38,724 nt of DNA, from positions 1 to 38,724 of the forward strand of contig JASGUU010000056.1 in the NCBI GenBank assembly GCA_030057555.1. The letters are read 5' to 3'. Under the pieces are notes generated by a model. The model worked only from the letters and a program-made list of their open reading frames with translations, ran no database searches and had not been told where the DNA came from. This document shows, in pieces, positions 3,615-38,540 of the stretch (position 1 is the stretch's first letter; each line of letters starts with the position of its first letter). The stretch is from Bacillota bacterium. GTDB lineage: Bacteria > Bacillota > Clostridia > Saccharofermentanales > Fastidiosipilaceae. The position numbers were made by a program, and so were the translations under genes.

Positions 3615-5270
3615 TTGTCTGACGAAGCGAGGTACATGCCCATGCCCGAACGCCTGATCCTGGGACTGGACATCGGCGGCACGAAAACGGCTGTCTCTCT
3701 CTCGGCCTGCGACCGCTACCGCGAGCCGCGGGTCCAAATTCTCGGCCGGACGCCCTTTGCCACCGAGCCCAAGGCCGGCTTCACCGCCGCCTGGAAACGA
3801 ATCACGGCCGCGGCGGAGGAGCTGCTCGCCGCGCAGGGCTGCCGCCGTGGCGGACGCTGGCCGGAGGCGGTCGGCATCGCCTGCGGCGGTCCGCTCAATT
3901 CCGCGGAGGGCGTCATCCTCAATCCGCCCCACCTCCCCGGCTGGGTCGACATCCCGCTGGTGCGGCTGGCTGAAGAGGCCTTCGGTATCCCGGCCTTCCT
4001 CGAGAATGACGCCAAGGCCGGCGCCCTCGTCGAATGGAAGCTCGGCGCCGGTGTCGGCTGCCGCTCGCTGATCTTTGCCACGATGGGCACGGGCTTTGGC
4101 TCAGGGCTCATTCTGGATGGCCGCCTGCTGCAGGGGCCGACCTTCACGGCCGGCGAAATCGGCCATGTCCGTCTCCACGATGACGGCCCCACAGGCTTCG
4201 GGAAGGCCGGCTCGGTCGAGGGTTTCATCTCCGGCTCCGGCATCGCGAAACTGCGTGCCCTCCGTGAAATCGAGTGGCAGGAAGCGGGCGATCCGCCTGC
4301 CTGGCTGGCCGCAGGCGAAGCCCCCGATGCCGGCCGCCTCGCCGCCCTGGCCCGGACCGGCGACCCCCACGCCCGCCGCCTCTACAGCGAAGTCGGCCGG
4401 CACCTCGGCCAGTGCCTCGCGAACCTCATCGACCTCCTGAACCCCGAGTGCATCGTCCTCGGCAGCATCTTCGTCCGTGCCGAAGACCTGCTGCGCCCCT
4501 CCATGGAGGCCGCCATCGCCGCCGAAGCCCTGCCCGCAGCCCGCGCCGCCTGCCGCATCGTCCCCGCCGCCAGCGGCGAGGCGATCGGCGACCTCGCCGC
4601 CTGCCTGACCGCGGCCACCGCCCTCGGCATCGAGCTCGCCCCCCTGCCGGCTGCGGACGAGGCCCCGGTTCTGGCCCATCTCGACCGCCTCACGGCACGC
4701 CACCCCGCCCTCGTCCCCTGCCGTAGCGACATCCTCGCCGTCTACCGCACGGTTCTGGATACGTACCTCGGTGGCGGGAAGCTGCTTACGGCCGGCAACG
4801 GCGGCTCGGCAGCCGACGCCGAACACATCGTCGGCGAGCTGATGAAGTCCTTTTGCCTCCCGCGCCCGGTCGCCGGCGAGGAGAAACTTCAGGGGGCCCT
4901 GCCGGCCCTCTCGCTGACCGGCCATCCGGCTCTGGCCACTGCCTGGCAGAATGATGTAGACGGAGAATGGACCTTTGCACAGATGGTGCATGGTCTGGGC
5001 AAAGCCGGCGACAGCCTCCTGCTGCTGTCCACCTCCGGCAATTCCGGGAACCTCGTCCAGGCCGCCCGCACGGCGCGGCGCCGCGGCATCCGCGTGCTCG
5101 GGCTGCTGGGCCAGGGCGGCGGCCGTCTCGCCCCGCTCTCTGACGCCGCCATCATCGCCCCCGGCACCAACACGGACGAGATCCAGGAATATCACCTGCC
5201 CGTCTACCACTGTCTCTGCGCGATGCTGGAGACCAGGATTTTCGACTCCAAAGTGCAGGCCGGGCCGTGA
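3615..5270 (+). CDS. ROK-family sugar kinase fused to a GmhA-type SIS isomerase domain
   Basis: A 551-residue two-domain protein. The first ~330 residues are a ROK kinase: phosphate loop LGLDIGGTKT near residue 15, LENDAKAGALVEW with the catalytic Asp, and GTGFGSGL. The zinc site normally formed by CGCGxxGC is gone (GFGKAGSVE), although the preceding GH remains. From about residue 340 to the end it is a sugar-isomerase (SIS) domain most like phosphoheptose isomerase GmhA, with GNGGSAADAEHI, LSTSGNSGN and TDEIQEYH. The combination suggests a phosphosugar is both made and isomerised by one polypeptide in the cytoplasm. The start may be TTG 3615, but ATG 3642 has a better GAGG spacing (9 bases) and begins MPERLILGLDIGG. 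The next gene overlaps its stop by four bases. Confidence 0.88.
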   Translation: MSDEARYMPMPERLILGLDIGGTKTAVSLSACDRYREPRVQILGRTPFATEPKAGFTAAWKRITAAAEELLAAQGCRRGGRWPEAVGIACGGPLNSAEGVILNPPHLPGWVDIPLVRLAEEAFGIPAFLENDAKAGALVEWKLGAGVGCRSLIFATMGTGFGSGLILDGRLLQGPTFTAGEIGHVRLHDDGPTGFGKAGSVEGFISGSGIAKLRALREIEWQEAGDPPAWLAAGEAPDAGRLAALARTGDPHARRLYSEVGRHLGQCLANLIDLLNPECIVLGSIFVRAEDLLRPSMEAAIAAEALPAARAACRIVPAASGEAIGDLAACLTAATALGIELAPLPAADEAPVLAHLDRLTARHPALVPCRSDILAVYRTVLDTYLGGGKLLTAGNGGSAADAEHIVGELMKSFCLPRPVAGEEKLQGALPALSLTGHPALATAWQNDVDGEWTFAQMVHGLGKAGDSLLLLSTSGNSGNLVQAARTARRRGIRVLGLLGQGGGRLAPLSDAAIIAPGTNTDEIQEYHLPVYHCLCAMLETRIFDSKVQAGP

Positions 5271-15180: not shown

Positions 15181-15494
15181 CACAGCCTGTGGCAGAAGGC
15201 CTGCCCCCTGTAGTGTCAACTGGTTATCCTCCGCTAACAAAATTAGCAGATTGCTTTTCCCTGGGCAATACCACTCTAATGGAAAATTGCAGCTCAAATA
15301 CCAGGAGATTGGAGCTGGACACAGCACCCGAGAGCAGCCTGACCGCGTCTGTGGAAAAGCGCAGTTCTGTCCAGGTTTCGGAGCACCACTGCAAGTGCTG
15401 TCCGTACAGCTGGCTGCCTCCTGTCAATGCCGCTATTTAGTGATCACAAAGAGATGGCGGCGGCACAGACTGCCAGTTGGCGACAAAGGGAGTG
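15181..15494. other. Gene-free stretch before the 60-bp array
   Basis: I see no protein family in any frame here. The stretch separates the methyltransferase remnant from the tandem array and probably contains decayed copies of intergenic repeat sequence, but I could not align them convincingly. Confidence 0.3.
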
Positions 15495-15840
15495 GCCAAA
15501 TTTTCCGCTCCTGCCCCGATTTGGGGCACCAGCGTCATTTTTGACCACTTTCCGGCCAAATTTTCCGCTCCTGCCCCGATTTGGGGCACCAGCGTCATTT
15601 TTGACCACTTTCCGGCCAGATTTTCCGCTCCTGCCCCGATTTGGGGCACCAGCGTCATTTTTGACCACTTTCCGGCCAGATTTTCCGTTCCTGCCCCGAT
15701 TTGGGGCACCAGCGTCGTTTTTGGCCACTTTCCGGCCAGATTTTCCGTTCCTGCCCCGATTTGGGGCACCAGCGTCATTTTGGGCCACCCTCCGCTCAAA
15801 AATCACAGTTATGTCACGATTCGTGGCACACTTCTGTTTC
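15495..15840. repeat. 60-bp tandem repeat array (five units plus a degenerate sixth)
   Basis: Five head-to-tail units of exactly 60 bp run from about 15495 to 15794 with only a few substitutions. A clearly diverged sixth unit follows at 15781-15840, and a trace of a seventh begins with GGAGCCACC. Each unit has a hairpin TGCCCC-GATTT-GGGGCA followed by CAGCGTCATTTTTGACCA and CTTTCCGGCC. Because 60 is divisible by three, several frames stay open across the array and give repetitive false proteins. Divergence rises toward the right end, as if the array expanded from the left. Confidence 0.95.
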
Positions 15841-30536: not shown

Positions 30537-33278
30537 TTAGTTGTTCTCTGCGAGAATGGCAGTGACGGAGTAGCCAGCATCCGTGATCGCGATTTTGAGA
30601 TCATTTTCGCTGATGCCGTCTGCGGCTTTGAGTCTGGCGCTGCCGCTGACATGGTCGACTACAACGTCCACGGTTCCGGAAACGGCCTCAAGAGCCAGCC
30701 GGACGGCGCGTTCGCAGTGCGGGCAGCTCATCCCGGTAATGTGGATGGTATACGTTTTCATGCTGACTGCCTCCTTTGTCTGGCTATTGGCTGGTGCCTG
30801 TGTTGCAGTGATATCGGGTCGGTGGAGATCCGGCCGCGCGTCTGCCTCGAGTGACTGGTGGCGTAGCCGCGCGTCTACCTCGAGTGACTGGTGGCGTAGC
30901 CGCGCGTCTACCTCGAGTGACTGATGGCGTAGCCGCGCGTCTACCTCGAGTGACTGATGGCGTAGCCGCGCGTCTACCTCGAGTGACTGATGGCGTAGCC
31001 GCAGGGCATTGGTGACGACGAAGATGGAGCTCAGGCTCATCGCGGCCGCAGCGATCATCGGGTTCAGCTGCCAGCCAAAGGCGGGATAGAAGACACCTGC
31101 GGCCAGCGGGATGCCGAGGCTGTTATAGAAAAAAGCCCAGAACAGGTTCTGGCGAATGTTGCGTAAAGTGGCCTGGCTGAGGCGGATGGCGCGGGCGATG
31201 TCCCGGGGATCCGAACGCATCAGTATGACATCGGCAGCTTCAATCGCTATGTCGGTGCCGGCACCAATCGCGATGCCGACATCGGCACGCATGAGGGCAG
31301 GAGCATCGTTGATGCCATCGCCGACCATGGCGACACGGCGGCCGCTGTTCTGGAGGCGGCGGATTTCGGCTTCCTTGTCGCCGGGCAGTACGTCGGCGAT
31401 GTAATGCTCGATGCCGGCAGAGGCAGCGATAGCACGGGCGGTCGGGGCATGGTCGCCGGTCAGCATCACAACTTCGCGGCCGAGGGCTTTCAGTTCCTGA
31501 ACGGCGGTGGGGGATTCCGGGCGCAGCTGGTCGGCGAGGGCGATGAGAAGGACTGTCTGGCCGGCGCGGGTGAAGTAGGCGATGGTCTGGCCGGCGGAGG
31601 AGAGCTGTCGGCTTTGCGTGGCGAGATGGGCGATGTTGATGCCCTGTTCTTCCAGAAAGCGGGCATTGCCGGCGAGCCAGAGACTGCCGTCGATATGGCC
31701 GGAGACGCCGAGACCAGCAAGGGCGGTGAATCGGGTGACATCGGGGCGCCTGGTGTCGGGGACTTCGCGGTCGGCATAGCGGACAATGGCGGCGGCAAGG
31801 AGATGCTCGGAGCCGGATTCGAGGGCGGCCGCGGCAGCGAGAAGGCTGGCGGGGTCATCGTCGCTCAGAGGGTGGATTTGAGTAACTTCGATATCGCCGC
31901 TGGTGAGGGTGCCGGTTTTGTCGAGGACGATCGTGTTGACGCCGGCGAGGCTTTCCAGGGCTTCGCCGGAGCGGATCAGGATGCCGTGGCCGGCGCCGCG
32001 GCCCGTGCCGGCCATGATGGCGACCGGGGTGGCGAGGCCGAGAGCGCAGGGGCAGGAAATGACCAGGACGCTGATCGCCATCTGGAGGGCAAAGCCGGGG
32101 CCGGCGCCGCTCGCGAGCCAGGCGAGGAGGGTGACGAGGGCTATCGCGAGGACGATGGGGACGAAGATGCCGGAGATGCGGTCGGCGAGGCGGGCGATGG
32201 GGGCACGGCTCGAGCCGGCCTCCTCCATCAGGCGGAGGATACCGGCGAGGGTGCTGTCTTCGCCGAGGCGGGTAACGCGGACACGGAGCTGACCGTGGGT
32301 GTTCATGGTGCCGCCGATGACGGTATCGCCGGGGAGCTTGTCGACGGGCAGGCTTTCGCCGGTGATGGCGGATTCGTCGACGCCGCTGTCGCCGGAGACG
32401 ACGATGCCGTCGGCGGGGATGGCCGAGCCGGGGCGGACCTGGACGATGTCGCCGAGTTCAAGGGCTGCGCTGGGAATTTCATCGCAGCCGCCGTCCGGGC
32501 GTTCGCGCAGGGCGGTGCGCGGGGTCAGGTCGAGGAGCTTTTGCATCGCCTGGCCGGTGCCGGCTTTCGAGCGGGCTTCGAGCCACTTGCCGAGGGTGAT
32601 CAGGGTGAGGATCATGGCGGAGCTTTCGAAGTAGAGCTGGTGACGGATCTGGCCTGCGGTGGCGAGGTCGCCCGCGCCGAGGGCATGGCTGGCCTGGAAG
32701 AGGAGCCAGATGCCGTAGAGGAGGGCGGCGGTGGAGCCGATCGCGATCAGGGAGTCCATGTTGGGGCCGCGATGCCAGAGGGCGCGGTAGCCGTTTATGA
32801 AGAAGCTGCGATTGAGGTAGAGGACGGGGAGGGCAAGGAGGAACTGGGCCAGGGCATAGCTGACGCTGTTGGCGGGGCCGTCGAGGGCGGCGGGCAGGGG
32901 GAGGCCGAGCATCGGGCCCATCGCGAGGCAGGCCAGCGGCAGCATGAAGATGAGGGAGAGGAAGAAGCGGCGCCTGAGGGCGTTGGCGGCTTCGTGGACA
33001 GCGCTGAGCGGATCTTTTGGTTTCGTCTGTGGGCTTTGTGCTGAAGACGTGGTGTTTTCCGCGGGAGTGCGCAGCGTGCCCGTATAGCCGGCTTTTTCAA
33101 CTGCGGCGATGACCGCCTCCGGTGCTGCGCTGCCGCTGACGAGCATGCGCCCGGTCAGCAGATTGATGCTGACTTCATCGACGCCTTCGAGGCTGCGAAC
33201 CGCGCGGTCGACGCGCGCCTGACAGGCAGAACAGGTCATGCCACCGACGTCATAGTGATTCTGAATACAGGCGTCCAA
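30537..33278 (-). CDS. copA: Copper-exporting P1B-ATPase fused to a CopZ chaperone domain
   Basis: 913 residues. An N-terminal heavy-metal domain (GGMTCSACQARV) is followed by eight membrane helices. The ion-path motif CPC is near residue 409 (ISCPCALGLATP), the phosphorylated Asp near 452 (VLDKTGTLTSG), and the hinge in VGDGINDAPAL. The normal CopA end SIFVVTNALRLRHQS then runs into five copies of RLRHQSLEVDA (about 757-812), a short linker, and at 840 a complete 74-residue CopZ-like metallochaperone starting MKTYTIHITGMSCPHC. It exports Cu(I) from the cytoplasm. The start is TTG 33278 behind GGGAGG. Fusion of pump and chaperone through a tandem repeat is unusual; the internal CopZ start keeps a strong ribosome binding site. 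Confidence 0.93.
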   Translation of the reverse strand: MDACIQNHYDVGGMTCSACQARVDRAVRSLEGVDEVSINLLTGRMLVSGSAAPEAVIAAVEKAGYTGTLRTPAENTTSSAQSPQTKPKDPLSAVHEAANALRRRFFLSLIFMLPLACLAMGPMLGLPLPAALDGPANSVSYALAQFLLALPVLYLNRSFFINGYRALWHRGPNMDSLIAIGSTAALLYGIWLLFQASHALGAGDLATAGQIRHQLYFESSAMILTLITLGKWLEARSKAGTGQAMQKLLDLTPRTALRERPDGGCDEIPSAALELGDIVQVRPGSAIPADGIVVSGDSGVDESAITGESLPVDKLPGDTVIGGTMNTHGQLRVRVTRLGEDSTLAGILRLMEEAGSSRAPIARLADRISGIFVPIVLAIALVTLLAWLASGAGPGFALQMAISVLVISCPCALGLATPVAIMAGTGRGAGHGILIRSGEALESLAGVNTIVLDKTGTLTSGDIEVTQIHPLSDDDPASLLAAAAALESGSEHLLAAAIVRYADREVPDTRRPDVTRFTALAGLGVSGHIDGSLWLAGNARFLEEQGINIAHLATQSRQLSSAGQTIAYFTRAGQTVLLIALADQLRPESPTAVQELKALGREVVMLTGDHAPTARAIAASAGIEHYIADVLPGDKEAEIRRLQNSGRRVAMVGDGINDAPALMRADVGIAIGAGTDIAIEAADVILMRSDPRDIARAIRLSQATLRNIRQNLFWAFFYNSLGIPLAAGVFYPAFGWQLNPMIAAAAMSLSSIFVVTNALRLRHQSLEVDARLRHQSLEVDARLRHQSLEVDARLRHQSLEVDARLRHQSLEADARPDLHRPDITATQAPANSQTKEAVSMKTYTIHITGMSCPHCERAVRLALEAVSGTVDVVVDHVSGSARLKAADGISENDLKIAITDAGYSVTAILAENN
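30762..30778 (-). promoter_or_regulatory. copZ: Internal ribosome binding site for CopZ alone
   Basis: Inside the copA frame, CAAAGGAGG (30778-30770) lies eight bases before ATG 30761, which begins the complete CopZ domain (30537-30761, 74 residues). This is as good a Shine-Dalgarno as any in the window. It indicates that copZ was once a separate downstream gene and can probably still be translated by itself. Confidence 0.75.
30838..31010. repeat. 33-bp in-frame tandem repeat in copA
   Basis: Five units of 33 bp encode RLRHQSLEVDA (the last unit has LEADA). The units differ by synonymous changes such as CAC/CAT in the His codon. The first residues RLRHQS coincide with the natural C-terminus of CopA, so the array arose by repeated duplication of the gene's 3' end. 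Confidence 0.95.
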
Positions 33279-33321
33279 CTTTTTCCTCCCTCAACCCTGT
33301 GAAAACGGTAAAGCACCGTTG

Positions 33322-37409: not shown

Positions 37410-37610
37410 ACTTCTCCTCTTTCCGTCGGGGCGGCTGCGAGCGGCACACGATCGCGAAAGCGCCCTCGAACCACTTCATCATAGCAGAGAAAGGCCGCCA
37501 TTCCGGTGCCGCTGCTGCCTGGAGGATGCACGTCAGAAATGTCGGGAAGCCGGTTAGCATGCCAGGAGAACGGCTGGCAAGGGGAAAATAGCAACTTGCG
37601 TACTTCTGGT

Positions 37611-37806
37611 GGTCAAAACGAAGAGTAATCCAAAAAAAGATTTGGATTACTCGCCATCTTGACCATGAAGGGGGCGTTTCTGGTCAAAACGAAGAGTAAT
37701 CCAAAAAAAGATTTGGATTACTCGCTGTCTTGACCAAAAAAGGGCCATTTCTGGTCAAAACGAAGAGTAATCCAAAAAAAGATTTGGAAAAGTCCCCATC
37801 TTGACC
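37611..37806. repeat. Three 54-bp nested-hairpin units spaced by 17 bp
   Basis: Units at 37611-37664, 37682-37735 and 37753-37806 (period 71 bp). Each has outer arms GGTCAA/TTGACC and an inner perfect stem GAGTAATCCAAA / TTTGGATTACTC. The third unit has lost the right inner arm (GGAAAAGTCCCC) but keeps the outer arms. The 17-bp spacers resemble each other and end in TTTCT. It lies between the divergent reductase and ABC transporter genes. Unit and spacer sizes do not fit CRISPR. Confidence 0.95.
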
Positions 37807-38540
37807 ACAAAGAAGGGCGCGCCGCGGCACGGCGCGCTGCTTATCGGGATCCCCTTTATCACACGGCATCAGGGAAACAGAACCTGGATCGCTTCGCAAT
37901 CTCCTGGCACGTGCCAGGTCGTGCCTGTCAGTCTCGCTGCCAGCTATCCTATCGCATGCCAATCACATTCCGGCAGTTTGTGAACTGGCCGTTACACTGG
38001 CAAATGGAGAAGGGATCTTCCATATACCTGCATGCCAGCTACGCTTAAACTTCGGTGTTTCAGGTCTTTGAGGAACGGCTGGGAAAAAGGCTGTGCTCGT
38101 CCCGACAAATAAGACGTGCACTAAAATGCGGCTGTCCGGCTGTCTGGCTTCCCGTAACATCTGCCCTCTGGTGCTGCCGGCCGCGGCGTGCTATCCTCTT
38201 CGCGGTATGTCCAGGGCCACCTGGATACAGATTCCAGACAAGCGACTGACGATTCGTTTCAGAAGACGGAGGGGAGCCCATGAGCCTTAGACGGAGACTG
38301 CGTATTACGCGCATGAACTGAAGCCGGCGATGTCCGGTGCCGGTCCGATTTACCGCACCGCCGCCTGATCCCCCTGCCCGTCGCCGCTTCTGCTTCATCT
38401 TCATTCTCATACCAGCCTGCTGCCGGCCGCCCCAAATCCAGGCGGTGCCTGTCGCTGTGGCGCCATTCAAACGTGGCCCACTGTGCCTGCACGGGACAGA
38501 CTTATCCCGCCGGACGGCTTCAGTTTGAAAGTAGTCTTTT
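37807..38540. other. Gene-free stretch upstream of the ABC transporter
   Basis: More than 700 bases with no frame I can assign to a protein family and no tRNA or convincing promoter. Short open frames overlap on both strands without ribosome binding sites. It may contain further decayed gene or repeat material. Confidence 0.35.

Follow-up and report, generated by a model that had tools for sequence, protein, structure and literature searches.

A copA gene fused to copZ keeps a conserved internal start and probably encodes both a tethered and a free copper chaperone in Clostridia

In a Bacillota bacterium of the Fastidiosipilaceae (Clostridia, Saccharofermentanales), copA and copZ form a single open reading frame (ORF), in which the CopZ part retains a ribosome binding site and a start codon of its own. 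Conservation of this internal start across the Clostridia weighs far more as evidence than a single window could, and the locus is very probably a conserved one-gene, two-product locus, giving a tethered CopA-CopZ and, by internal initiation, a free CopZ of ~7.8 kDa. The original prediction, that one mRNA could provide both tethered and free CopZ, is thus supported as probable.

Results

The window analysed is a stretch of 38,724 nucleotides (assembly GCA_030057555.1, contig JASGUU010000056.1, positions 1 to 38,724). Its reverse strand carries, at 30537..33278 (-), a fused copA-copZ ORF that is open over 913 aa from a TTG start codon (33278-33276), in agreement with the CopA-repeats-CopZ arrangement that had been proposed as a single frame. 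The TTG is preceded by the Shine-Dalgarno (SD) sequence AGGGAGG (33285..33291 (-); duplex -11.8 kcal/mol), and the product is laid out as CopA, five 11-residue repeats, a short linker and CopZ. Two HMA domains (Pfam PF00403) flank the E1-E2 ATPase/HAD core: the N-terminal one of CopA (GMTCSAC, aa 9-66, 33081..33254 (-)) and the C-terminal one, which is the CopZ part (GMSCPHC, aa about 843-905, 30570..30749 (-)). The translation contains GMTCSAC, SCPCALG, DKTGT and GDGINDAP, and hence what characterises a P1B-1 Cu(I) ATPase, i.e. an N-terminal HMA with GMxCxxC, DKTGT, GDGIND and a CPC in a membrane helix; it also scores 609 bits with the curated CopA model (TIGR01511, copper P-type ATPase, cut-off 397). 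On its sequence, the window CopA is a standard P1B-1 copper ATPase.

Within this frame, an ATG at 30759..30761 (-) opens a nested copZ ORF of 74 aa (7,772 Da; 30537..30761 (-)), which has its frame and stop in common with the fusion. The SD sequence AAAGGAGG (30770..30777 (-)), which is kept in fusions, lies 8 nt 5' of this ATG, and its duplex energy of -11.8 kcal/mol equals that of the SD of the copA TTG. An intact internal CopZ start with a good ribosome binding site, as originally described, is therefore present. The CopZ part has the features of a CopZ domain: an HMA with CxxC (PF00403, 33.6 bits, cut-off 24.8), a length of ~70 aa and its own start signal. With the curated CopZ models, the window gene remains below cut-off (NF047957, 51.4 bits for a cut-off of 85; NF033795, 43.3 for 91), and it is therefore CopZ-like by domain and motif rather than a certified CopZ equivalog.

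Relatives were searched for copA loci in the order and the class of the window. Among the 258 loci read, mostly from Clostridia, 210 are fused, 45 unfused and 3 truncated, proportions that give no unbiased prevalence since the loci sampled are the best matches to a fused query. Named loci belong, in Clostridia, to Lachnospiraceae, Oscillospiraceae, Acetobacterium, Gemmiger, Christensenella and others and, beyond Clostridia, to five Negativicutes, one Erysipelotrichia and one Tissierellia; no clear annotated fused record was found in a plasmid collection. As read from these sequences, the CopA-CopZ fusion is old. In 20 of the unfused loci, the copA stop is immediately followed by an HMA ORF of its own, whose motif is 29-233 nt away; this suggests a route by which fusions arise. 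On the tree, the fused or unfused state switches at least 14 times; fusion may thus have occurred repeatedly, and part of the retention of the SD could stem from such repeated fusions.

The conservation of the internal start was assessed in a representative set of 139 fusions with less than 75% identity in the CopA core. An in-frame ATG is found 7-20 codons before the C-terminal HMA CxxC in 129/139 of them (93%). The mean anti-SD energy at these internal ATGs is -9.1 kcal/mol, versus -2.5 at 4,104 other in-frame ATGs of the same genes, and energies of -8 or lower are reached by 81% of the internal sites versus 1.9% of the other ATGs. An ATG with an SD of -5.8 or lower is present at the CopZ site in 90.6% of cases, compared to 5.0% of same-size windows elsewhere, and 129/139 fusions have a start with such an SD when TTG and GTG are also counted. 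In 100 of 129 genes, no other SD-ATG pair within the ORF is as strong as that of the CopZ start. Synonymous codon choice alone would give a weaker mean SD energy of -5.7 (Wilcoxon p about 1e-21), in a test that is weak for each gene taken singly (p=0.05 for the window gene). The RNA around the internal site is almost unfolded, with an MFE of -2.1 versus -10.6 at other ATGs.

What is kept is the base sequence rather than the amino-acid sequence, because the SD core spans all three codon phases (83/32/8). When linkers are anchored on the ATG, identity is at the level of chance (27-29%) at positions -90..-31 versus 47-56% at -18..-7. Amino-acid conservation is ruled out as the cause of the SD by the use of three codon phases and by the lack of linker conservation, and AT-richness is ruled out because GC-rich genomes show the site equally: it is present at every GC level, including 11/11 fusions with a GC content over 60%. 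In a phylum-wide sample, 9/9 fused loci have an ATG at the site, most with a clear SD. At three loci (L115, L150 and L225), TTG or GTG replaces the ATG while a strong SD is kept, and in a fusion with two C-terminal HMA domains (L206, genome G491), the internal SD and ATG precede the second domain only. In a control made of tandem N-terminal HMA domains, an ATG precedes the second HMA in 2/10, a small sample of ten cases. About 7 of the 139 fusions are devoid of the site, e.g., L013, from the same family as the window, L039, L112, L182 and L191; free CopZ is therefore not indispensable.

The fused frame itself also seems to be maintained. The linkers of the fusions, 13 to 88 aa long, have no conserved sequence, and their other frames mostly contain stops. 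As a search for stop-free linkers among already fused genes alone would be circular, fused loci were compared to those where the HMA has an ORF of its own next to copA: the genome-search sample contains 131 of the former and 20 of the latter, while only ~12% of shuffled linkers are stop-free, which indicates that the common frame is maintained. On these sequence comparisons, the fusion and the separate start thus both appear to be retained by selection.

The genome of the window, which is 96% complete, contains exactly two HMA domains, both in the fused gene, and has no other copZ. Among 66 relatives surveyed, a separate HMA ORF of at least 50 bits, the threshold for a good one, was found in 21/26 unfused versus 9/40 fused genomes (p=3.8e-6). 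Most simply, the free chaperone would come from the nested start. In one large genus, small HMA ORFs are often located near other metal ATPases.

The linker of the window gene begins with a 33-bp tandem array of five copies encoding RLRHQSLEVDA units (30833..31002 (-)), for which TRF gives 33 bp x 5.2 copies with a 98% match; the exact copy number is uncertain in this draft assembly of 90 contigs. The array starts at the conserved NALRLR end of CopA, and its product is made of four RLRHQSLEVDA followed by RLRHQSLEADA, the last copy being deviant. The rest of the linker up to the internal start (30762..30832 (-); ending in RPDLHRPDITATQAPANSQTKEAVS) holds the internal SD and is predicted to be disordered. 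The 33-bp unit is absent elsewhere in the genome of the window and from three other genomes of the family (0/3), and is present in a sister species, as two exact units and a partial one, i.e., 2-3 versus 5. Uniqueness in the genome and occurrence in the sister species indicate that the array is real and exclude chance, and its presence there in a separate assembly argues against an assembly artefact. The homogenised version of the unit differs between the two species (RLRHQ versus RLRNQ), and no match to a repeat of the RLRHQSLEVDA type was found in any other fusion linker read; the array is hence young and the linker around it old. Among the loci examined, the sequences identify the array as a genus-specific expansion of the linker.

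It had been proposed that the copA stop was lost by repeated duplication of the 3' end of the gene, and that a flexible linker was created in this way. The former is not borne out: almost none of the 210 fused loci has repeats, and these repeat-free fusions in many relatives rule out repeat duplication as the origin of the fusion and show the array to have been added to a pre-existing linker. Relatives that lack the array and have separate genes, which were expected to speak against the prediction, do exist, but most array-less relatives are nevertheless fused. As to flexibility, the AlphaFold2 model, obtained with 42 fused relatives, is confident for the pump and for the HMA domains at both ends, shows a single long helix over the repeats (aa 770-808, pLDDT ~55-73), then leaves aa 808-837 disordered, before a confident HMA fold with the beta-alpha-beta-beta-alpha-beta order. 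Flexibility is thus doubtful for the repeats themselves, while the segment beyond them is disordered. An 11-residue period fits a regular helix, and according to the model the array may form a rigid spacer.

Short tandem repeats are also found in the linkers of L261, L149 and L005, with periods of 24, 6 and 4 residues, and repeat-driven linker growth seems to have occurred more than once. The genome of the window is generally rich in tandem arrays (TRF lists 60 rows for a 337-kb sample). The window contains two further ones, at 37610-37818 (71 bp x 2.9) and 15494-15788 (60 bp x 4.9), near-copies of which are arranged head-to-tail on several other contigs of this genome (L293, L296, L298, L299, L302, L305 and L311). 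The 71-bp unit holds the dyad TGGTCA...TTGACCA, and both arrays look like a dispersed tandem-hairpin family.

Discussion

In the mechanism that we propose, ribosomes starting at the TTG would make the CopA pump with a CopZ domain tethered to its C-terminus, while others, starting at the internal SD and ATG, would make a free CopZ of 74 aa. The latter would be a soluble Cu(I) chaperone, taking up cytosolic copper and delivering it to the pump, and tethered CopZ would probably feed the pump in cis or act as a regulatory metal-binding domain (MBD), like other MBDs of CopA. Ancestral, adjacent copA and copZ would have merged into one frame, with selection keeping the CopZ start, and the arrangement would have been inherited; in the genus of the window, the linker would have been lengthened later by the 33-bp minisatellite. 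Use of the internal start in cells, the ratio of the two products, copper transfer, the role of the tether and the division of labour all belong to this model, which we infer from sequence, and a strong SD is no guarantee of use where elongating ribosomes already cross the region. A more elaborate version is tentative, with chances somewhat short of even: in Clostridia as a whole, some Negativicutes and other Bacillota, this nested copper-export gene would give tethered and free CopZ distinct jobs, the tethered form feeding the pump in cis and the free form scavenging copper in the cytosol, and linker length, including minisatellite growth in some genera, would tune the tether.

The internal SD and ATG could alternatively be a relic, passively left by a recent fusion of copA and copZ, with only the fused pump made in meaningful amounts. 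Fusion by stop loss would be easy in those unfused relatives where an HMA ORF lies directly past the copA stop, and the number of switches required by the tree is in agreement with this possibility. Between fusions below 75% CopA identity, however, the linker is randomised while the SD and ATG remain; the SD is moreover found in differing codon phases and with TTG or GTG starts, and fused genomes are mostly without another good CopZ. A relic is therefore unlikely. Conversely, the internally started CopZ might be the main chaperone and the fusion tail a functionless by-product of the lost gene boundary, as the variable length and unconserved sequence of the linkers could suggest; given the excess of fused over adjacent-separate loci and the rarity of stop-free random linkers, the fusion itself seems kept, and we consider this explanation a little less probable still. 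It is finally very improbable that the repeats caused the fusion in this lineage by duplication of the copA 3' end, or that the array arose during assembly: the first repeat does overlap the conserved NALRLR end of CopA, but repeat-free fusions are found all over Clostridia as well as in some Negativicutes, and the array of the sister species stands in an assembly of its own.

The locus with a tethered and a free CopZ can be compared to several known systems. In E. coli, one gene gives two proteins, CopA and CopA(Z), by frameshifting (PMC5009743; Meydan 2017 and Drees 2017, as cited in PMC7558416). Like here, a single copA serves for the pump and for a free HMA chaperone of ~70 aa (predicted in our case), without a separate copZ. 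The N-terminal part is, however, the one freed in E. coli, through a -1 frameshift followed by an early stop, whereas the candidate free product is here the C-terminal HMA, predicted to arise in frame by internal initiation; it is thus not of the E. coli CopA(Z) type, and the view that this is a different solution from that of E. coli holds. Separate copA-copZ operons of Bacillota have the same two proteins and gene order, but here the stop is gone and both are in one frame. In type III secretion, an in-frame internal start of SctQ/YscQ gives the C-terminal domain beside the full-length protein (PMC4295842). The family is unrelated and its role structural, whereas CopZ carries metal; the internal start is nevertheless common to both, as a prediction here, and, as for SctQ, an in-frame SD start is conserved beyond coding need. 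Archaeoglobus fulgidus CopA is also described as having a C-terminal MBD (Agarwal 2010, as cited in PMC7558416), but this organism additionally has a separate CopZ (PMC7558416), unlike the genome of the window. No report of a CopA-CopZ fusion or of an internal copA start was found in the open-access literature, the only literature covered.

If the proposed mechanism is true, it would be a second, independent bacterial way to obtain a pump and a chaperone from one copper gene, and its widespread, conserved internal start would have been missed by annotation on the basis of one protein per ORF. It would also explain how many gut Clostridia do without a visible copZ gene. The fused locus would offer a clean test bed for the functions of tethered versus free chaperone and, finally, it suggests that intragenic SD sites can be retained by selection as real starts.
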